From Thermoflexus hugenholtzii JAD2 (lineage in GTDB: Bacteria > Chloroflexota > Chloroflexia > Chloroflexales > Roseiflexaceae): DNA of 46,626 nucleotides. The DNA lies in NCBI GenBank assembly GCA_945881915.1, contig CAMCVW010000026.1, forward strand, positions 1 to 46,626, given 5' to 3'. Position numbers and translations under genes: made by a program. This document shows, piece after piece, positions 30,433 through 46,530 of the stretch. The notes below the pieces were generated by a model. That model was not told the DNA's origin. It ran no database searches and was given only the letters and a program-made list of their open reading frames with translations. Positions within the stretch are counted from its first letter, which is position 1. Every line of letters begins with the position of its first letter.

Positions 30433-31566
30433 TTACTGGACCCCGGAGCGAATGTTGCTCGACGAAATATCGCGCCGGAATGTCTGTTCATCTAGTACCA
30501 TAAAGAGCGACTGCCAGCCGGATGGAATATCCTGGCGTCGTACTTGTAGGAACACGCCGTTTGCATCAGTGCGCCCGACTACCAAAAAACGGCATCCATG
30601 TGTAGCGATAACGGATAAGGCTTCCGTCACGCCACCGGCGCCATAGTATTTGGCGTCAAGGAGTCTGATTGCGGTGTCGTACCCGAGTACAAATGTCGAT
30701 TCAGGGTAGAGGATGGCTTTGTCTACGAAGCGAGGTGCACGACTCAGCAGGAGCGGGTGATCGCCACTGAATTGTTGACTACGAGATAAAATGGATGTGT
30801 ATGGCAGGATTGGTTTGTCGGCATTCACGACACTCAACTCATAAAAGCCAGGTTGGTAGGTGTACGCCATTGCTGTGGTGAGGAGCGTTCGGTGGCCCGA
30901 ATGGAGGGGATTAAATGATCCCGATAGAATCGTCGCAGCACGCACCTGCTGTGTGACAAAGTGCTGCTGTCCGATTGCGCGGATGCACTCTGACTCACCA
31001 CTCAGAAAACGCGAAAGGACATCGTGTACCGAATGTTCTGTCACGATGAGCGTTTCAGTCTGGTCGAGTTGAAGTGAAATGGTGGGCAGTAACCCACGAT
31101 TCAGGGCCATTGCCTGAATGAGTAATTCTGCCACCATGTGTTCTTCGCCGGCCCGATCACGTAACCCTTTTGTGAGGGTGAGACCATAGACGTGTACGCC
31201 AGATCGATCCGCGAGTGCCACCCAACACCCGTGATCTCCGCGCTTACGTCGATCAGTTGCAATGGTGGCAGTGCAGCCAATCCCGTTGTTGGTCGTACCG
31301 GGGTGTAAATCACATGCGCGTCTGTACGCAGCCCACGCCATTGCGATAGCGGTGTCGCGACTGACAAAATGTGTTGGCTCGTAACCGAGCAGGGATTTCA
31401 TCGACTGCGGTGCATAGCGATCCGTTGCCTCGAGGATGGTTCGTGACGAACCAGCCACCGCATGGAGATGCCATAGCGCGGCACTGCCGGCTCCGGCAAA
31501 TTCTAGTACAGAGGGCATTGGGGTATCGTGGATACGTGTTATCAGGTCACGTAGATGAGCGTGCAT
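30433..31566 (-). CDS. CinA-like / HxGH nucleotidyltransferase fusion
   Basis: 377 residues from the ATG at 31566, with GAAAGAG upstream. The first 160 residues resemble the CinA C-terminal (PncC) fold: EFAGAGSAALWHLHAVAGSS replaces the ESCTGG catalytic loop, and GIGCTATIATDRRKRGDHGC matches the later region. From residue about 215 SGSFNPLHSGHRTLL is the HxGH motif of adenylyltransferases, and SSSNIRSG near the C-terminus is the ISSTxIR-type motif. PncC deamidates NMN and NadD/NadM-like enzymes adenylate NaMN or NMN, so a role in pyridine nucleotide salvage is plausible. Altered catalytic residues in the first domain mean it may be inactive or bind only. Divergent from pstS. Confidence 0.72.
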   Translation of the reverse strand: MHAHLRDLITRIHDTPMPSVLEFAGAGSAALWHLHAVAGSSRTILEATDRYAPQSMKSLLGYEPTHFVSRDTAIAMAWAAYRRACDLHPGTTNNGIGCTATIATDRRKRGDHGCWVALADRSGVHVYGLTLTKGLRDRAGEEHMVAELLIQAMALNRGLLPTISLQLDQTETLIVTEHSVHDVLSRFLSGESECIRAIGQQHFVTQQVRAATILSGSFNPLHSGHRTLLTTAMAYTYQPGFYELSVVNADKPILPYTSILSRSQQFSGDHPLLLSRAPRFVDKAILYPESTFVLGYDTAIRLLDAKYYGAGGVTEALSVIATHGCRFLVVGRTDANGVFLQVRRQDIPSGWQSLFMVLDEQTFRRDISSSNIRSGVQ

Positions 31567-31625
31567 GGCGACTCTTTCGTATTGAACGAAGTATACCAGT
31601 TTGTCCGCGAAAAAATGACAACGAC

Positions 31626-31664
31626 TTAACACAGTATTAACGAAAAACCTGCGATTGGATAACA
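31626..31664 (+). promoter_or_regulatory. PhoP-box-like direct repeats upstream of pstS
   Basis: TTAACA (31626-31631), five bases, TTAACG (31637-31642): an 11-base period, the arrangement seen in PhoP boxes of Firmicutes. A third, weaker copy ATAACA is in phase two turns on (31659-31664). A TACCAT at 31674-31679 could be the -10. Whether this phylum uses the same operator is an inference. Confidence 0.5.
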
Positions 31665-31737
31665 GACGCTCGGTACCATAGAAATGTCCGAATCTCCTGT
31701 ACGTTTGCAATTCATGTCAGAGCGAAAGGGTGTACAA

Positions 31738-33135
31738 ATGACTGCTACGAATCGTACCATCAAAGCAATGATGTTGAGCCTGGCCCTTGTCAGTGCTCTT
31801 CTGCTGGCTGCATGTGGGAGCCCTGCTGCTCCTGTAGCAGAGGCAACCAAGCCTCCAGAAGTTGCCGCCGAAGCAACTGCCGTTCCCGAAGCAACCGCAG
31901 TTCCAGAAGCAACTGCCGTTCCTGAAGCAACTGCCACGACTGAGCCAACCAAAGCTCCAGAAGCAACTGCTACCACCGCGGTTGAAGCAACGGCAACGGT
32001 AGAAGCCACTGCAACCATGGCCGCTACGGCGACGTTGGCTGCAACACAGGCTGCTACTGCAACCAAGGTTGCCATGACGGCACCGACAGCCACCACCGCA
32101 CCTGCTGTTGCATCCACCGAGTGGGCGCCACGTCAGTTGACCGCCACGCTGTCAGGTTCCGGCGCCAGCTTCCCAAATCCTTTGTACCAAGTGTGGATCT
32201 CGGTGTACTCCAAGAACGTTGTCCCTGGTGTACAATTGAGCTATTCGAGCGTCGGTTCGGGTCAAGGTCAGAAGGACTTTATAGCTTACCTGACAGACTT
32301 CGGTGGCACCGACAGCGCTATCAAATCAGCTGACGTCGCGTCAAAGGCACCTGACGCAATCCATCTGCCGATGGTGTTGGGTGGCGTGATGCCGATGGTC
32401 AATATCGCCGGCATCAAGACCTCACTGAAGTTCACTCCAGAGACATTGGCTGGTATCTATCTCGGTGCCATCACCAACTGGACTGACCCACGTATCGCCA
32501 AAGACAACGAAGGCGTCGCATTCCCAGACCTCGAAATCACCCCAGTCTATCGTTCAGACAGTTCGGGTACCACCTCGATTTGGACCGATTACCTCAGCAA
32601 GGTCAGCACGGACTGGAAGGCCAAGGTTGGAGCAGGTAGCGCCGTCAGCTTCCCAGCAGGTATCGGAGCATCAGGCAATGCAGGCGTCTCTGCCACCGTC
32701 CTCAACACCAATGGTGCTGTCGGCTATGTCGAAGTCGGGTATGCACTCGCCGCTGGCTTCCCACTGCCATTCGTCAAGAACGCCGCAGGTAACTTCATCA
32801 AGCCCGAAACAGCCAACGTCAGCTCTGCAGCAAACGGTTTGAATATTTCGAGTGACCCAAAGAAGCTCGCAACGTCAATCACCAACAGCGCTGCAGCAGA
32901 TGCCTACCCCATCGCAGCATTCACCTATGTGTTGGTTCGTCAGACCACCTACACGGACGTCGTCAAGGCTCAGGCTTTGTCAGACTACCTCTACTGGGGT
33001 TTGACCACCGGTCAAGGTGCAACGGTTCGCTTGGGATACGCCCCACTGCCAGAAGCAATGCGTAAGGCATCGATGACGGCCCTGATGACCATGCGCGTCG
33101 CTGGTCAGCCGGTCCTCGAAGCTCCTGTAAAATAA
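31738..33135 (+). CDS. pstS: Phosphate-binding lipoprotein PstS
   Basis: 465 residues from the ATG at 31738 (GAAAGGG upstream). Signal peptide with lipobox LLAAC at about residues 22-26. Residues 35-115 are a Thr/Ala/Glu/Pro-rich linker made of degenerate ATAVPE-type repeats that would tether the domain to the membrane. The binding domain follows: LSGSGASFPNPLYQVWISVY, the SSVGSGQGQKDF phosphate loop, FGGTDSAI and PVYRSDSSGTTSIWTDYL (second phosphate-contact loop). It captures phosphate outside the cell for the PstCAB transporter. First gene of a five-gene operon, with a hairpin between it and pstC. Confidence 0.95.
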   Translation: MTATNRTIKAMMLSLALVSALLLAACGSPAAPVAEATKPPEVAAEATAVPEATAVPEATAVPEATATTEPTKAPEATATTAVEATATVEATATMAATATLAATQAATATKVAMTAPTATTAPAVASTEWAPRQLTATLSGSGASFPNPLYQVWISVYSKNVVPGVQLSYSSVGSGQGQKDFIAYLTDFGGTDSAIKSADVASKAPDAIHLPMVLGGVMPMVNIAGIKTSLKFTPETLAGIYLGAITNWTDPRIAKDNEGVAFPDLEITPVYRSDSSGTTSIWTDYLSKVSTDWKAKVGAGSAVSFPAGIGASGNAGVSATVLNTNGAVGYVEVGYALAAGFPLPFVKNAAGNFIKPETANVSSAANGLNISSDPKKLATSITNSAAADAYPIAAFTYVLVRQTTYTDVVKAQALSDYLYWGLTTGQGATVRLGYAPLPEAMRKASMTALMTMRVAGQPVLEAPVK

Positions 33136-38791: not shown

Positions 38792-40027
38792 TTAGTCAAG
38801 GTCAAATACATCGCTGCTGCTGCCCGGTTCGTATGGTGTAAGGTAGACGCCATCCTGGACGATGGCAGGATGCACAAAATGTTGGCGTAGGTGTGGTATG
38901 TACTCGAGAAATAGTCGATCATGTCCCATACCAATGTGATTAAAGAGCACTAAATGCTGGTGAACTTGACCCATATCGCCGACGTGCGGGGCAACAGGGA
39001 GCCCGAATTGTCGTGCCATGAGACTAATCGTCAGGAATTCGCTGACACCACCTACGCGGACACAGTCCGCCTGGACAAAGTGCAGAGCCTGGAGTTGCAG
39101 ATAGTTTTTGAAGACGACCGCATTGGGCAGATGTTCTCCGGCTGCAATATGGAGTGGAGCGATTTGCCCTGCGAGGGTCTGGTGTCCGACGATGTCGTCC
39201 GGATGGAGTGGTTCTTCGATCCAGAAGGGATTAATTTCGCGGAATGCTTCGCACATGGTCAGTGCCTGTGGCAGACTCCACTGTTGATTCGCATCCAGCA
39301 TCAGCGTTGCATCGGCACCTAATTCGGCACGGACGGCTGCGGCACGGCGCAGATCATAGTTGGGGTCACGTGCACCGACTTTGAGTTTGACGGCCCCGAA
39401 TCCTGCCGCACGGGCGCGTTTTGCGTTTTCGCGTACTTGGAACTCGTCGTAATGGAACCATCCGACTGAGGTGTCATAGCCAGGGTATCCATCACGAAGA
39501 ACTGCCATACGAGCGGATCGACTCGCGTGGGCGTTCGACAGTATGGTGGTGGCTTGCGCAGGGGTCAGAATGTTTTCGAGTGACGAAAAATCAAGCGTAG
39601 CCACGAGTGCAGAGGGTGATAGGTCAAGGAGGAGTTGCCAGAGCGGAATACGCCGATGTTTCGCCCAGAGGTCGAAACAAGCATTGGTAATTGCTGCAAG
39701 CGCGAGATGCACGACACCTTTGTGTGGTCCGAGCCAACGATACTGGTGATGGTTGGCAATCGACGTATACATTGTGCCGTACGATGCCATGAGTTCTTCG
39801 ATGTCACGTCCAACCAGAGTCGTTGCGAGGGCCTCGATGGCTGCGCACACGAGGGCGTTGCCGCCACCGAGGGTAAAAGCAAAACCGACACCACGCAATG
39901 GTGTGTCGGTTTCGAGGAGGCATATTGCGTAGGCGTACTGAGGATTCGTGTGAATTGCGTCAGCACCTTCGCCGGGAGCCAAAGAATAGATGCGGTCGAC
40001 AGTTCTGATAGCACGGATTGTTGTCAT
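38792..40027 (-). CDS. L-fuconate dehydratase-like enolase superfamily enzyme
   Basis: 411 residues. The N-terminal cap domain contains HTNPQYAYAICLLETD and RWLGPHKGVVHLA-AA, which match L-fuconate dehydratases. The barrel holds the KLKVG catalytic Lys pair, metal ligands LMLDANQ, WIEEP and AGEH, and the C-terminal His in PHVGDM. FucD removes water from L-fuconate to give 2-keto-3-deoxy-L-fuconate. Other acid-sugar dehydratases (rhamnonate, galactarate) are related, but the overall pattern is closest to FucD. It lies 44 bases after the aldehyde oxidoreductase gene on the same strand, so they are probably cotranscribed. Confidence 0.83.
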   Translation of the reverse strand: MTTIRAIRTVDRIYSLAPGEGADAIHTNPQYAYAICLLETDTPLRGVGFAFTLGGGNALVCAAIEALATTLVGRDIEELMASYGTMYTSIANHHQYRWLGPHKGVVHLALAAITNACFDLWAKHRRIPLWQLLLDLSPSALVATLDFSSLENILTPAQATTILSNAHASRSARMAVLRDGYPGYDTSVGWFHYDEFQVRENAKRARAAGFGAVKLKVGARDPNYDLRRAAAVRAELGADATLMLDANQQWSLPQALTMCEAFREINPFWIEEPLHPDDIVGHQTLAGQIAPLHIAAGEHLPNAVVFKNYLQLQALHFVQADCVRVGGVSEFLTISLMARQFGLPVAPHVGDMGQVHQHLVLFNHIGMGHDRLFLEYIPHLRQHFVHPAIVQDGVYLTPYEPGSSSDVFDLD

Positions 40028-40071: not shown

Positions 40072-43000
40072 TCATGTGTCTTCGCGTGGGGGTTTGTTGG
40101 GCTGAGGAAGCTCTGCCTTGAGGAGCTCTTCGATGCTCAAGCGTTTCACTATGCTGATACGGGACGCAGGTTTCGGCGCATCGATAGGGACGGTTTGCTC
40201 TGCTGTTGGTTTGGCTGGTTCCGTCGGGAAGACGAAATCATCGGGAGAAGGTTGCGGTATGCTGAGTGCTGTATCGGTGTTTGGATTGGGGATATACTGC
40301 TTTACTGATGGTGCAGGGAGGCGTGTCTGCGGTTGCGGTACAGACTGCTCATTGATGAGCAGTGAATCATCTGTTTGCTGAGTATCTACGGCCGATACGT
40401 CCTGGAACATGTTGCTCGTTTCCAGAGTTTTCTGCGATTGAGGGGCAGCAACGTGTTGGTCGTGTAACTCTGGAGTCAGCGAGCTTGTCGGCACGTCATC
40501 AATTTTTGATGCTGCACCTTCGAGAACCGGCAAACTATCACCTTCCAGGGAGTGCTCGTCGAGTTCGTTTGGTGCAGTCAACAACGATTCGTGGAATGTT
40601 GAGGCGATGGGAGTTGGATTGCCGCGCTTCCCCGTAGTGTTGGATTTTTTCTTTGGAGCCTTCAGAGCGTTCACGGTCGGGGAAGAAACATCAGTGTCTG
40701 CTTCTGTGTGTTCAGAAGTATGTAGTGACTGCGTTAGGCTGACGTCGGCTGTATTAGTCTCGGCAGCGACGGCCTGTGGCAGCTCGATGGTCGTATTTGC
40801 AGCACCCGTTCCGTCGAGAACATCTGAAGCACGAGCAGGAGTACTAGTAGCGCTGGTGTCGTCAGTCAACGAAGTATGAATTTCCGATGGGGGAATGGGA
40901 ACAGCTATTTGGGATGTCGATCCCTCCGTAGATGTCGCGATCGACTGCGTTGGTGATTCTGGCTGTGCGTCAGTCACAGACTCTAGGTGAACGGGCGGTG
41001 CAATCTCGGAATGCTCCACCCGCACAGCTGGGGAATCTACAACAGCAGATTGCTCTTGAAAGGGCAATGTGGGTGTATCAACGGCGAGAAATTCGGGATG
41101 GTCGGCAGATGCAGAGGCTTCGAGGGGGTGTTCACCCGCTGCAATGTCCAGCGCTGCATCCACAGGGGCGAAAGCATCGGGAGCAATAACGAGGGCAACG
41201 GGGATGAGCGGTTTTGGCGTTACCGGCAGGTGTTCGATAGCCCATTCGAGGTGGAACTCGTAGAGCGTTCCCGGTCGTGGCGTCCCTGACTCATCCCAGC
41301 CCATCATCTCGTAGTAGAGGGCTATTTCGGCATCGAAGGCGACTTTGTCGAGGAATACCCCGGCTTTGTCACCATTGTCAATCGGTTCTGTGAAGAATCG
41401 TTCGGGTAACGTATCGGTGTTTGCTCCGATGCCTTCGCGGCGATTGTAGAGTTGCATCAAGTGGGTACGACGTTCACCAAAACGGAGGAGTTCGTGCGAC
41501 GATGTCTCCCAACCGGTGACAGCTGCCAGCATATCGGTCATCATCTGAAGACTGAGCACGCGCGTCGGTGCAATGGCGAATATACAGAAAGCGAGCGCAT
41601 CTGCGGCCGACCATATGGTATGGAGCGCTTTGTAGTTACGAACTTTTTGGGGACCGAGGTATTCCATGGGGATGCGTTCGATGATTCCCAACGTACGGGA
41701 ATAGTCGAGTGAGTGATCCCACCCTACTTGGGTATCGAAATCCCAATCGTGTTCACAGATATCGTAGCGAGGCCCAATCGGTGCGGTGGCATAGCCCAGA
41801 GCCAGGTTGCTTTGGCTCCTTGGTTCGAATGGAACCAGTTCGACGCCTTTGACGTGCATTGCATAGCGTTCAGAGCCATTACCGATGCGTTCTGCAGCGC
41901 GTTGTGATCCCTCAGCAAGGATGTTCCCAAATCCAGAGCGTTTGACGATGAGTTCGATCATCGCGAGCGTTGCATCGGTATTCCCAAATCGCAGTGCAAT
42001 GCCATCGAGCATATGCTTTGGGATGAGTCCCTGTTCGTTTGCTTCCATCGCAAAAGAAAGGGTGAATCCCAGTGAGACAGGGTCTAGACCGTATTGGTTG
42101 CACAGATTGTTGTAGCGCATGACTGCTCGAGGATGCTGGGTGCCAATGTTGGGACCCATAGTACCGCTGACCTCTTGATGCAAGCCGCCTGCGCGGATGT
42201 CGAGGTCTGCTTCGTGATTGTGATAGATTTTGATGCAGTCATTGGGACACCCTGGGCATTTGGCAGTAGATTGGAAGTATGGCATCCAGGTAGATGCTTT
42301 GTAGTTTTCGAGATACTCGAACGAGGCAGTACGGTAGTTTTCGGTATTGAGTGCAGCGTCGAGCCCATGCGTGTGTACCCACACGGCGAAACCCGGCAAA
42401 TCTTTTTGCCACATTGACAACGTGTTTTTCTTCATGTCGGCTGCAAAACGTGCGTTCAAAGTTGCGACTCGTTCGGGGTCGGCCATCGGCGGCAGGCTTC
42501 CACCAATGAGAATAATGGCTTTGAGATTTTTTGAGCCCATTACTGCACCGACACCATGGCGTTGTGCTTGGTGCGTCCGACTGCTGACAATACTGGCGTA
42601 CCGGACCTTCTGTTCCCCTGCAGGTCCGATAGTGGCCACATCGGTCGTGCGATCGAACTCGTTCGCTATGAGATCAGTGGTTTGGCCGACCGTCTTGCCC
42701 CACAGGTGTGACGCATCTACGAAGCGTACGGCACCGTCTTCGATAATCATGCTGACAGGATGATCTGCACGGCCGTGCAATACAATCGCGTCGTAGCCCG
42801 ATTTTTTGAGAGAAACTGCCCACGGGCCTTCACTGCGCGTCTCGCCTATTCCATTGCTCAGAGGTGATTTGGTTGTGACGACGTAGCGCACGAGACCCGC
42901 TGCCGGGTACCCGGCGACAACACTGTTGCTGAACACGAGAATGTTCTCGGGAGAAAGAGGATCTATTTTGGGTGCGGTATCACGCAGCAAAAAATACGTG

Positions 43001-43116
43001 CCCAACAACCCCCCACCGCCGTAGATGCGATAGAAGTTGTCTTCGGGGTATTCGACCGATGTTGTCTGGGTATCTAGGTAGACATGTAAGATAGCGCCAT
43101 GAAAACCAAACGCCAT
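40072..43116 (-). CDS. Aldehyde:ferredoxin oxidoreductase with long C-terminal tail
   Basis: 1014 residues. Residues 1 to about 633 are a tungsten-pterin aldehyde ferredoxin oxidoreductase: GGGGLLGTYFLL, GVGAVMGSKNLKAII (pterin domain), CPGCPNDC with Cys at about 287, 290 and 294, and a fourth cluster ligand at about 511 (ALAFC). The enzyme oxidises aldehydes to acids and reduces ferredoxin. Residues about 634-1014 are a Pro/Thr/Ser/Glu/Asp-rich, likely disordered tail unlike typical members (near 600 residues), ending in a basic helical motif (SRISIVKRLSIEELLKAELP). ATG preceded by GGGAGAG. First gene of a probable operon with the FucD-like gene. Confidence 0.88.
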   Translation of the reverse strand: MAFGFHGAILHVYLDTQTTSVEYPEDNFYRIYGGGGLLGTYFLLRDTAPKIDPLSPENILVFSNSVVAGYPAAGLVRYVVTTKSPLSNGIGETRSEGPWAVSLKKSGYDAIVLHGRADHPVSMIIEDGAVRFVDASHLWGKTVGQTTDLIANEFDRTTDVATIGPAGEQKVRYASIVSSRTHQAQRHGVGAVMGSKNLKAIILIGGSLPPMADPERVATLNARFAADMKKNTLSMWQKDLPGFAVWVHTHGLDAALNTENYRTASFEYLENYKASTWMPYFQSTAKCPGCPNDCIKIYHNHEADLDIRAGGLHQEVSGTMGPNIGTQHPRAVMRYNNLCNQYGLDPVSLGFTLSFAMEANEQGLIPKHMLDGIALRFGNTDATLAMIELIVKRSGFGNILAEGSQRAAERIGNGSERYAMHVKGVELVPFEPRSQSNLALGYATAPIGPRYDICEHDWDFDTQVGWDHSLDYSRTLGIIERIPMEYLGPQKVRNYKALHTIWSAADALAFCIFAIAPTRVLSLQMMTDMLAAVTGWETSSHELLRFGERRTHLMQLYNRREGIGANTDTLPERFFTEPIDNGDKAGVFLDKVAFDAEIALYYEMMGWDESGTPRPGTLYEFHLEWAIEHLPVTPKPLIPVALVIAPDAFAPVDAALDIAAGEHPLEASASADHPEFLAVDTPTLPFQEQSAVVDSPAVRVEHSEIAPPVHLESVTDAQPESPTQSIATSTEGSTSQIAVPIPPSEIHTSLTDDTSATSTPARASDVLDGTGAANTTIELPQAVAAETNTADVSLTQSLHTSEHTEADTDVSSPTVNALKAPKKKSNTTGKRGNPTPIASTFHESLLTAPNELDEHSLEGDSLPVLEGAASKIDDVPTSSLTPELHDQHVAAPQSQKTLETSNMFQDVSAVDTQQTDDSLLINEQSVPQPQTRLPAPSVKQYIPNPNTDTALSIPQPSPDDFVFPTEPAKPTAEQTVPIDAPKPASRISIVKRLSIEELLKAELPQPNKPPREDT

Positions 43117-43502: not shown

Positions 43503-44618
43503 TTATACGTACGTTCCAGGTAAATTGGTACACGCTTCAACAAGGACCGAGCAATCGGAGTTGTGTGGAGCCACGACGGTGAGATGGCCTACTTTCCGAC
43601 CAGGTCGTGGCGTTTTGTGGTACCGATGGATGGCGACTCCTGCTGGTACGGCGGAATCTTCGGGTTCATTGCCGATGAGATTGAGCATAACTGCAACGCC
43701 TCGCATGATGGGTTCGCGGACTGCGAGTCCCGTAACAGCGCGGACGTGATTTTCGAACTGTGATGTACTCGACCCTTCGATACTCCAGTGTCCAGAATTG
43801 TGCACACGCGGTGCAAATTCGTTGATGACGAGAGTGGGACCATGGGGAGTATCGATTACGAAACACTCAATCGTCAGTATTCCCACATACGCGAATGCCG
43901 AGAGGATGCGGCTTGACATCAGGTGTGCATTTGCCTCCAGTGCTGCGGTGCTACACGGAGCCGGTGCTGTAGAACGTCGTAGAATACCGTCACGATGCAT
44001 GTTTTGGACCAATGGATAGCGGATGATGGTCCCAAACTGGTCGCGTGCAGCGATAATTGACACCTCGTAGGTGAACGGAACGTAGCCTTCGAGGATTAAT
44101 TCGTGGCCAATATAGTGGGCGCGGGCAGCATCGAGCTCTGCAGTGGAGTGGATAGTCTGTTGCCCTTTACCGTCGTAGCCCATTCGCCGCGTTTTGAGGA
44201 TGGCGGGGAGACCTACTGCCGCCACCGCATCCGCCGAAGAAAGCGCGTCGGAAAGTGCGATGAATGGAGCAGTGGCGTAGCCGAGCTGAGTAGCAAATTC
44301 TTTTTCGAGGAGGCGGTCTTGGCAGATGCGTAGGGCCATTGCACCAGGTGCGACAGGTTTGCGTGCGGCGAGGAATGCAACGCAGGCCACGGGGACGTTT
44401 TCGAATTCATAGGTAATCACATCGACGGCATCCGCGAATGCTTGCAATGCGGTGAAGTCATCATAGGTAGCACAGTGATGTACGGCGCAGAGTCGTGCCG
44501 GTGCGTGCGGGTCTGGTTCATAGATGTGGCACGAGATGCCGAGCGGGATAGCTGCAAGAGCCAGCATTTGGGCGAGTTGACCGCCTCCGAGGATTCCCAG
44601 AATAGGCTGCGTCGGCAT
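43503..44618 (-). CDS. purK: 5-(carboxyamino)imidazole ribonucleotide synthase PurK
   Basis: 371 residues. ATP-grasp enzyme of purine synthesis: makes N5-CAIR from AIR, ATP and bicarbonate. Visible: ILGGGQLAQMLALAA at the N-terminus, VITYEFENVP, ILKTRRMGYDGKGQ (ATP-binding loop), LILEGYVPFTYEVSII, INEFAPRVHNSGHWSIEG (metal and substrate loop). ATG preceded by AAGGAA. purE, its usual partner, is not within view; it would be expected elsewhere. Flanked by a terminator on one side and the divergent GH99-like gene on the other. Confidence 0.95.
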   Translation of the reverse strand: MPTQPILGILGGGQLAQMLALAAIPLGISCHIYEPDPHAPARLCAVHHCATYDDFTALQAFADAVDVITYEFENVPVACVAFLAARKPVAPGAMALRICQDRLLEKEFATQLGYATAPFIALSDALSSADAVAAVGLPAILKTRRMGYDGKGQQTIHSTAELDAARAHYIGHELILEGYVPFTYEVSIIAARDQFGTIIRYPLVQNMHRDGILRRSTAPAPCSTAALEANAHLMSSRILSAFAYVGILTIECFVIDTPHGPTLVINEFAPRVHNSGHWSIEGSSTSQFENHVRAVTGLAVREPIMRGVAVMLNLIGNEPEDSAVPAGVAIHRYHKTPRPGRKVGHLTVVAPHNSDCSVLVEACTNLPGTYV

Positions 44619-44701: not shown

Positions 44702-46429
44702 ATGTCTCGTTTGTTGACCTTCGCGGTGTTGAGTGCGTTGGCGTTTACGCTCGTTCCCAGTGCCGTGCCAATCCAGGCTTCTGCGCAAAAAAAGGTATTT
44801 GCATACTACTACAGTTGGTGGAATCGGTTGAGTTGGGATCCGAGTCGCATGAGTGATCGACCGCCGGAGCTCTACGATAGCAAATCCGAAGCGGTAATTC
44901 GCCGGCAGATAGAGCAAGCCAAAGATGCAGGAATTGACGGGTTTTTCTGTACCTGGCGGTATAGTTGTGCCAAGGTACTCAGTGTGGCAGAGTCGGTGGG
45001 TGGATTTTCGATTGCCTTCAGCGTTGACCCGGTCGGCGATCCAACCTTGGGCACCAACGCCAGTATCCGCAAAAACATGCGCGAGATGATGGGGTACATG
45101 GCCAGTCCTGCGTACCTGAAAATCGACAAAAAACCCGTGTTTGTCTTTTGGAACGACACCATCCTCCCAGGCCGGGTCGGTACCAAGAGTGCATGGCAGC
45201 AATTGCGAGATGATGTCGATCCCGATCGTGGGCAGTATTGGTTGGGTGGTGGGGTAAACTTCGGGTTGTTAGATGTATTTGATGCGTTGCACTTCTATGA
45301 CATTACATGGGAAGCCTCTTCAGGCAAGGCGATGGCCTCATATAACCGCAAACTGAACGACTATAACGCCAGTCATGGGACGAACAAGCCTTCGGTTGCT
45401 ACGGTGATGCCGGGGTATGACGATATGCGCTACCGGGGTGGTCACCAAAAAGCCCGCGACGATGGGAATTATTATCGGAGTGGGTGGGATGTGGCACGCG
45501 CGTACGACGCCTCGTTTGCGGTGATTACGAGTTGGAATGAATGGTTTGAGGGGAGTTCTATTGAACCCAGTAACAACTTCGGATCGGTCTATTTGGATAT
45601 CACGCGTGAAAAGATCGCCGCATTCAATGACCCAACTCCTGTCGTTGCACCAGGCTTTGCAGACACGGCGATGAAGGCGCTGTGGCAGCGCAGTGACCTG
45701 GCTATCGAGCAAGGGCGCACGGTGCGGTCGTGGATATGGGGGCCGCGCATGGGTGATGGCATGCTGGAAGCCTACAACGGCGGGGAGCGACTCGTGCAAT
45801 ACTTCGATAAATCACGGATGGAGATAAACGACCCCTCCGCGAGTCGAAGTTCCGCATGGTTTGTCACCAATGGACTGCTGGTCAATGAACTGATGACCGG
45901 GCGACTGCAGTCTGGGGAATCTTCTTTTGTGCTGCGAGCTCCGTCCGAGGAAGTGCTCGCCGGCGACCCAGCGGTTGTGAACGGCGATTCACCACGCTAC
46001 GCGACGTTGGCGGTAGTGGCGACCTATCAGCCGCCCAAAAACAATGAAAAACTGACGTTACAGATGCGACGCGATGGATCGTTGATGACCATTGTGCCTC
46101 CGGCTGAGGTCTTCAATACGCGTTACATCGCCGAAACAGGGCATAACATTCCTGATGTCTTTGATACATTTTTGGGTCAATCGGGTCTGGTATTCACGGG
46201 CAGTGGATACGCGGTGGGACCGGTATTTGATTGGGTATTTACCTTTGGGTACCCGATTACCGATGCGTACTGGATAAAAACAAACATCGTCGGGGTGTCA
46301 CGGTGGACCTTGATGCAAGCGTTCGAACGGCGGATTTTGACGTACACCCCGACGAATCCTGCCGGATTCCAGGTCGAAATGGGCAACGTCGGCCAGCATT
46401 ATTTTGTATGGCGATACGGGAAGAAGTAG
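44702..46429 (+). CDS. Secreted GH99-like (WbsX-type) protein with Chloroflexota C-terminal module
   Basis: 575 residues. Signal peptide MSRLLTFAVLSALAFTLVP..ASAQ. Residues about 30-310 resemble endo-alpha-mannosidase/GH99-like domains: KKVFAYYYSWWNRLSWD, AGIDGFFCTW, KKPVFVFWND, VATVMPGYDDMRYRGG and FAVITSWNEWFEGSSIEP. Acidic residues in the last motif fit a glycan-processing site; substrate unknown. Residues about 330-575 are a separate module (ERLVQYFDKSRMEIND, WFVTNGLLVNELMTGRL, and FERRILTYTPTNPAGFQVEMGN at the end) that I recall from other Chloroflexota proteins; its role is unknown. ATG preceded by AGGAG. Divergent from purK. Confidence 0.75.
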   Translation: MSRLLTFAVLSALAFTLVPSAVPIQASAQKKVFAYYYSWWNRLSWDPSRMSDRPPELYDSKSEAVIRRQIEQAKDAGIDGFFCTWRYSCAKVLSVAESVGGFSIAFSVDPVGDPTLGTNASIRKNMREMMGYMASPAYLKIDKKPVFVFWNDTILPGRVGTKSAWQQLRDDVDPDRGQYWLGGGVNFGLLDVFDALHFYDITWEASSGKAMASYNRKLNDYNASHGTNKPSVATVMPGYDDMRYRGGHQKARDDGNYYRSGWDVARAYDASFAVITSWNEWFEGSSIEPSNNFGSVYLDITREKIAAFNDPTPVVAPGFADTAMKALWQRSDLAIEQGRTVRSWIWGPRMGDGMLEAYNGGERLVQYFDKSRMEINDPSASRSSAWFVTNGLLVNELMTGRLQSGESSFVLRAPSEEVLAGDPAVVNGDSPRYATLAVVATYQPPKNNEKLTLQMRRDGSLMTIVPPAEVFNTRYIAETGHNIPDVFDTFLGQSGLVFTGSGYAVGPVFDWVFTFGYPITDAYWIKTNIVGVSRWTLMQAFERRILTYTPTNPAGFQVEMGNVGQHYFVWRYGKK

Positions 46430-46432
46430 GTA

Positions 46433-46474
46433 GGAATTATGAATGAGGAATTATGAATGAGGAATTATGAATGA
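46433..46474 (+). repeat. 14-bp tandem repeat (3 copies)
   Basis: Three exact copies of GGAATTATGAATGA (46433-46446, 46447-46460, 46461-46474), then GGAA of a fourth. It starts four bases after the stop of the GH99-like gene. In-frame ATGs recur, but no reading frame is implied. Confidence 0.92.
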
Positions 46475-46530
46475 GGAAGATAATGTCTCTAGACGTGGTG
46501 TAAATTCGCCGGATTGACACAATGGTCACT

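Follow-up and report, generated by a model that had tools for sequence, protein, structure and literature searches.

What could a long, apparently unfolded extension do for the catalytic subunit of an aldehyde ferredoxin oxidoreductase (AOR)? This question is raised by a 46,626-nucleotide stretch of DNA (the window) from the Roseiflexaceae genus UBA965, whose MAG names mostly indicate freshwater sites, and in which an AOR-family reading frame continues far beyond its catalytic core. The reading that we favor, with a probability of roughly 0.55, is that this extension is a disordered C-terminal arm, gained once and recently, whose four or five short motifs dock the AOR to one or more partners. 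In the next paragraphs we describe the core and its genomic setting, the tail and its distribution, and the explanations that compete with a docking function.

The catalytic core and its genomic setting

The AOR gene and its immediate neighbors are arranged as follows.

40072..43116, minus strand: AOR-family protein, whole open reading frame, 1014 aa, stop codon at 40072-40074 (reading frame, Pfam, AF2)
41218..43116, minus strand: catalytic AOR core, residues 1-633 (Pfam, phmmer against 1aor, conservation over 49 sequences, Foldseek)
38792..40027, minus strand: downstream neighbor (FucD), an enzyme of the enolase superfamily, nearest to human ENOSF1 and to L-fuconate dehydratases of solved structure
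43503..44618, minus strand: upstream neighbor, PurK

The AOR is encoded in a single frame of 1014 codons with no interruption, and the two Pfam domains found in it, AFOR_N (residues 8-204; 211 bits, cut-off 29.8) and AFOR_C (residues 241-622; 299 bits, cut-off 27), score above their curated cut-offs and end before residue 633. An earlier first-pass annotation had placed the end of the catalytic part near this residue, where family members stop, and the boundary holds: AFOR_C ends at 622, and 47 of the 51 AOR loci of the subfamily that were inspected terminate at the core end or at most 11 residues past it, the other four belonging to the tailed clade.

AF2 models the core with confidence, and this model matches 1aor in Foldseek with an E-value of 1.5e-50 and a TMt of 0.94, a value also given for 9mqx. 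The ligands of the [4Fe-4S] cluster, C287, C290, C294 and C511, align with those of 1aor (phmmer); in the alignment of 49 sequences the first three are invariant and C511 is conserved in at least 90%. Core residue E315 is aligned to E313 of Pyrococcus AOR, while H448 of that enzyme is paired with Y451, an invariant H456 following five residues further on; E313 and H448 are the second-shell Glu and His of the Pyrococcus enzyme. By its sequence, the core is an AOR/WOR-family oxidoreductase, for which tungsten-type aldehyde oxidation is predicted. With Pyrococcus furiosus AOR (1aor) and with 9mqx_D, a chain of a bifurcating aldehyde oxidoreductase, it has in common both Pfam domains, the fold, the four Fe-S cysteines and the E313 equivalent, whereas it differs from them in the overall identity of only ~30%, the tyrosine aligned with H448 (despite the invariant H456 nearby), the 381-residue tail and the lack of an adjoining polyferredoxin gene. 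Core residues 451-457 (window 41746-41766) read YDICEHD, the signature of a wide AOR subfamily that, per record titles, includes Chloroflexota, Spirochaetes, Bacteroidia, WS1 and others, and of which no characterized member was identified in this analysis.

PurK, AOR and FucD all lie on the minus strand, and the FucD-like gene begins 44 bases past the AOR stop; judging from spacing and strand, AOR and the FucD-like gene are probably co-transcribed. The same gene order is common to tailed and tail-less UBA965, where contigs reach, and as it is kept in the tail-less species, the tail occupies what is in those species a short AOR-FucD junction. Genes for polyferredoxin and FAD subunits of the AorABC type are not found beside the AOR; PF13247 has a single match in this genome, in an open frame of 989 codons on a different contig. 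Lactaldehyde arises from an aldolase branch of the L-fuconate pathway and is a plausible substrate of the AOR.

Several further features of the surroundings were recorded. At 44702-46429 (plus strand), a protein with weak WbsX and glycosyl hydrolase 99 matches is conserved beside PurK in UBA965, and just past this last gene, at 46432-46478, a 14-bp unit is present in 3.4 copies with no mismatch. A 425-aa frame at 30433-31710 (minus strand), with no Pfam or NCBIfam match, overlaps the first bases of the opposite-strand PstS frame. In other records, a MAG titled 'Singulisphaera sp. GP187' contains a UBA965-type AOR adjoined by PurK, FucD, HtpG and pst genes, and because of this neighborhood its title is probably wrong; three related AORs (L072, L075, L076) have ABC-transporter genes and one cyclase-like gene in their vicinity, a context unlike that of UBA965.

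Composition, motifs and selection in the tail

The tail, C-terminal to the core, comprises residues 634-1014 (381 aa); it is rich in Pro, Ala, Ser, Thr, Asp and Glu and contains one Tyr, no Trp and no Cys. In the full-length AF2 model, pLDDT is below 50 over nearly all of residues 635-1014, and a short helix is placed at 995-1002. Because of its composition, its repeats and this model, and not because of the charge-hydropathy measure, by which it lies near the disorder boundary and not past it, the tail is predicted to be disordered and to have no fold, with helices at motifs only. The disordered tail of about 380 residues that had been proposed from the letters alone is thus borne out. The C-terminal block (C-block) of a relative, L058, modeled alone, yielded separate helices at M1, M2 and M5 and one more between, with a pTM of 0.18, which corresponds to no fold; the M2 helix was the most confident block. 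Neither the tail nor the C-block has a relative in Pfam or among PDB sequences, and the motifs found no match there; a Pfam match of the tail to PBP_N (E 1.1) was taken as chance. The parts of the tail are the following, the motifs having been read from the alignment.

40639..41217, minus strand: variable disordered linker, residues 634-826, with an EPAAVV-type hexapeptide array in relatives that is absent in this species
40570..40626, minus strand: motif M1, RGNxTPIxSxxxESLLTxP, residues 831-849, degenerate in L034
40444..40479, minus strand: motif M2, L[TS]PELHDxHxxA, residues 880-891, helix in the L058 C-block model
40282..40338, minus strand: motif M3, PQPQTRLPAP[AS]VKxYxPxP, residues 927-945
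40225..40245, minus strand: motif M4, P[DE]DF[VI]FP, residues 958-964
40105..40176, minus strand: motif M5, PKPA[TS]RxxIxKRLSI[QE]ELLxAE[ML]P, residues 981-1004, containing the predicted helix 995-1002

Between this protein and its tailed relatives, identity amounts to 86% in the core and mostly to ~70% in the motifs (M1 is degraded in L034); outside the motifs, it falls to 15-21% in the C-block and to ~24% over the aligned positions of the linker. As M1-M5 were chosen by eye from the very alignment used for scoring, the contrast between motifs and spacers is partly built in, a weakness of which the codon test is free. In codon counts, the C-block (M2 to the end) gives a dN/dS of 0.14-0.19 in three pairs with a dS of 1.0-1.2; one further pair gives 0.18 at a dS of 3.0, which is unreliable, and the remaining pairs are saturated. 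These ratios indicate that the tail frame is translated and that its protein sequence is under purifying selection. As far as sequence comparison can tell, four or five short motifs of the tail are preserved by natural selection.

This result also bears on the description of the tail's end as an amphipathic basic tip, for which conservation of the last 35 residues was to be compared with that of the linker. The tip corresponds to M5, which is conserved and includes a short predicted helix, but conservation is not confined to it, and its amphipathic character is unremarkable, the best hydrophobic moment over 11 residues being reached by 89% of shuffles.

The linker of the relatives is built of tandem 18-bp units encoding EPAAVV-type hexapeptides (16.6 copies in L003, 11.4 in L005), and linker length and repeat number differ freely among them; in this species no such 18-bp unit is present. 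Elsewhere in the window, PstS (31684-33135, plus strand) has an N-terminal linker of 18-bp tandem units (repeats at 31868-32015), read as EATAVP, which precedes a domain starting at about residue 150 and whose repeat style is like that of the relatives' AOR tails.

Distribution and history of the tail

Core and tail are joined in one frame in four MAGs (the one described here, G001/L058, G008/L060 and G006/L065). In a fifth, G007, the core and the rest of the tail are found on separate contigs, both ending in the common hexapeptide repeat, as expected of a short-read assembly broken at a repeat. The tailed sequences therefore number five only, of which L058 and L065 are very close to each other. 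The concern that no orthologue would carry the tail is accordingly removed, since three further UBA965 MAGs have it in the same frame and a fourth has it split at the repeat. Five of the ten AOR-bearing UBA965 genomes possess the tail, the AORs of the other five stopping right after the core; in one more genome, G004 (72% complete), a whole-genome search gave no AOR match.

In the core tree, the five tailed proteins form a single branch with a support of 100/100. Because of this branch, and because the other inspected AORs end 0-11 residues past the core, a single gain of the tail within one genus is the simplest history suggested by the sequences. Absence of the tail elsewhere was judged from the lengths of the 51 AOR loci and from profile searches of genome samples that cover part of the family: a C-block profile retrieved the five known tails only from 26 genomes of the family and nothing convincing from a phylum sample of 400 Chloroflexota genomes (one match, in G106, with 16.9 bits and an E-value of 0.008). 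Searches of the genus, the family and the phylum sample gave no copy of the C-block standing on its own. A role as a general sorting tag was considered and rejected, as no second protein of the genus has the motifs and the weak extra matches were a methyltransferase-like frame and spurious frames. Being confined to AOR tails and having no Pfam or PDB relative, the C-block is not a sorting tag common to several proteins, nor is it a known domain that was recruited.

A proposed docking arm and its competitors

The noncatalytic region of RNase E is characterized by intrinsic disorder, AEPV-rich composition, tandem repeats and embedded microdomains, and the repeats have been proposed as progenitors of the microdomains (PMC4435900). 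The tail displays a comparable layout, with predicted disorder and conserved short motifs among variable spacers, and has in common with the C-terminal region of RNase E in gamma-Proteobacteria the disorder, the Ala/Glu/Pro/Val-rich tandem repeats and the microdomains behind a conserved catalytic core; RNase E is, however, another enzyme to which no sequence relationship is claimed, and the parallel is one of analogy only. Because spaced conserved motifs on a disordered, repeat-rich arm reproduce this layout, a docking arm is favored, with a protein as the likeliest partner. The linker would supply reach, M2 and M5 would turn helical on contact, and M3 and M4 would act as Pro-rich or aromatic contacts; together, the motifs would bind one or several folded proteins and keep them near the active site or Fe-S exit, thereby raising the local concentration of partners; the C-terminal tail of RNase E plays such a part in the degradosome.

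Our guess at the first candidate partners is the co-encoded L-fuconate-dehydratase-like enzyme or an electron acceptor. Half of the AOR-bearing genomes of the genus have no tail and, as far as their contigs show it, the same gene order, so that the core reaction can do without the arm and the dehydratase is unproven as a partner. Tethering by a long flexible arm, which the first-pass annotation had suggested, is in part upheld: identities of ~70% in motifs versus ~20% in spacers, the low dN/dS, one origin and the lack of a predicted fold are consistent with an arm bearing contact points, and two of the tether targets then named, membrane and compartment, found no support (see below).

The main rival to a docking arm is fold-back or self-association, an improbable but serious alternative in which the motifs contact the AOR core of their own chain or of the other chain in a dimer and regulate, stabilize or oligomerize the enzyme with no other partner. 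Assemblies of several kinds are known in the AOR family, and filament formation of the Aromatoleum AOR is driven by a C-terminal helix of 20 residues in AorA (PMC10413684); furthermore, two of the core positions altered in the tailed clade only (Q555 and E620) lie near the C-terminus. However, these clade-specific changes number just five, and the full-length AF2 model contains no confident docking of the tail on the core, though weak docking could go undetected with tail alignments of only four sequences. The Aromatoleum aromaticum AorABC complex resembles the UBA965 AOR in having a C-terminal element, which is there needed for higher assembly, but this element sits on the ferredoxin subunit AorA and not on the catalytic subunit (PMC10413684).

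Somewhat less probable again is that the arm, by way of an adaptor, brings the enzyme to the membrane, to the photosynthetic apparatus or to a cell pole. Reaction-centre L/M genes are present in nine of the 11 genus genomes, UBA965 has been described among the aerobic anoxygenic phototrophs of a lake (PMC10103773), and M5 is basic and partly helical by prediction. Against such a localization, the reaction-centre genes also occur in tail-less sister species, the tail has no apparent transmembrane segment, and most shuffles match M5 in hydrophobic moment; the latter two points also speak against the membrane as a direct tether target.

That the tail is non-functional read-through or repeat expansion agrees with the free variation of linker length and repeat number and with the loss of the repeat in this species, and may hold for the linker sequence; for the C-block it is refuted by the dN/dS values obtained at a dS of at least 1.0 and by motif identities far above those of the spacers, and as an account of the tail it is very improbable. 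Even less credit is due to a role as cargo tag, be it for an encapsulin or for a microcompartment. Several encapsulin cargos are marked by disordered termini with short motifs (PMC8346489), but profiles PF04454 (Linocin-type encapsulin) and PF00936 (BMC shell), the two shell families covered, had no match in the 11 genomes of the genus while control searches were positive, and the compartment as a tether target is thereby largely refuted. Finally, a frameshift, an assembly error or an artificial joining of two genes, for which the separate contigs of G007 might be cited, is refuted by the one-frame tails of four MAGs, by purifying selection, by the position of the G007 break inside the repeat and by the lack of a stand-alone C-block in the genus, family and phylum samples.

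Returning to the docking arm, we regard it as a speculative and rather doubtful extension that the tail makes the catalytic AOR subunit itself the scaffold of a multi-enzyme or electron-transfer assembly in an aerobic phototroph, for example one that joins the breakdown of L-fuconate and the oxidation of aldehydes to an electron acceptor. The literature searched, with few subscription papers among it, contained no described counterpart of a tail on the catalytic AOR subunit; passages of PMC12096430 and PMC8346489 concern the AorA subunit and encapsulin families, respectively, and not such a tail. If the docking reading holds, UBA965 would offer a clean example from nature of a metabolic enzyme that has acquired a multivalent docking arm, in which the tail-less sisters with the same gene order allow a direct comparison of the states before and after the gain. 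The tail motifs would be ready-made baits for the electron partner of the AOR, and the locus draws attention to a predicted tungsten-type AOR in lake phototrophs that have been described as aerobic.
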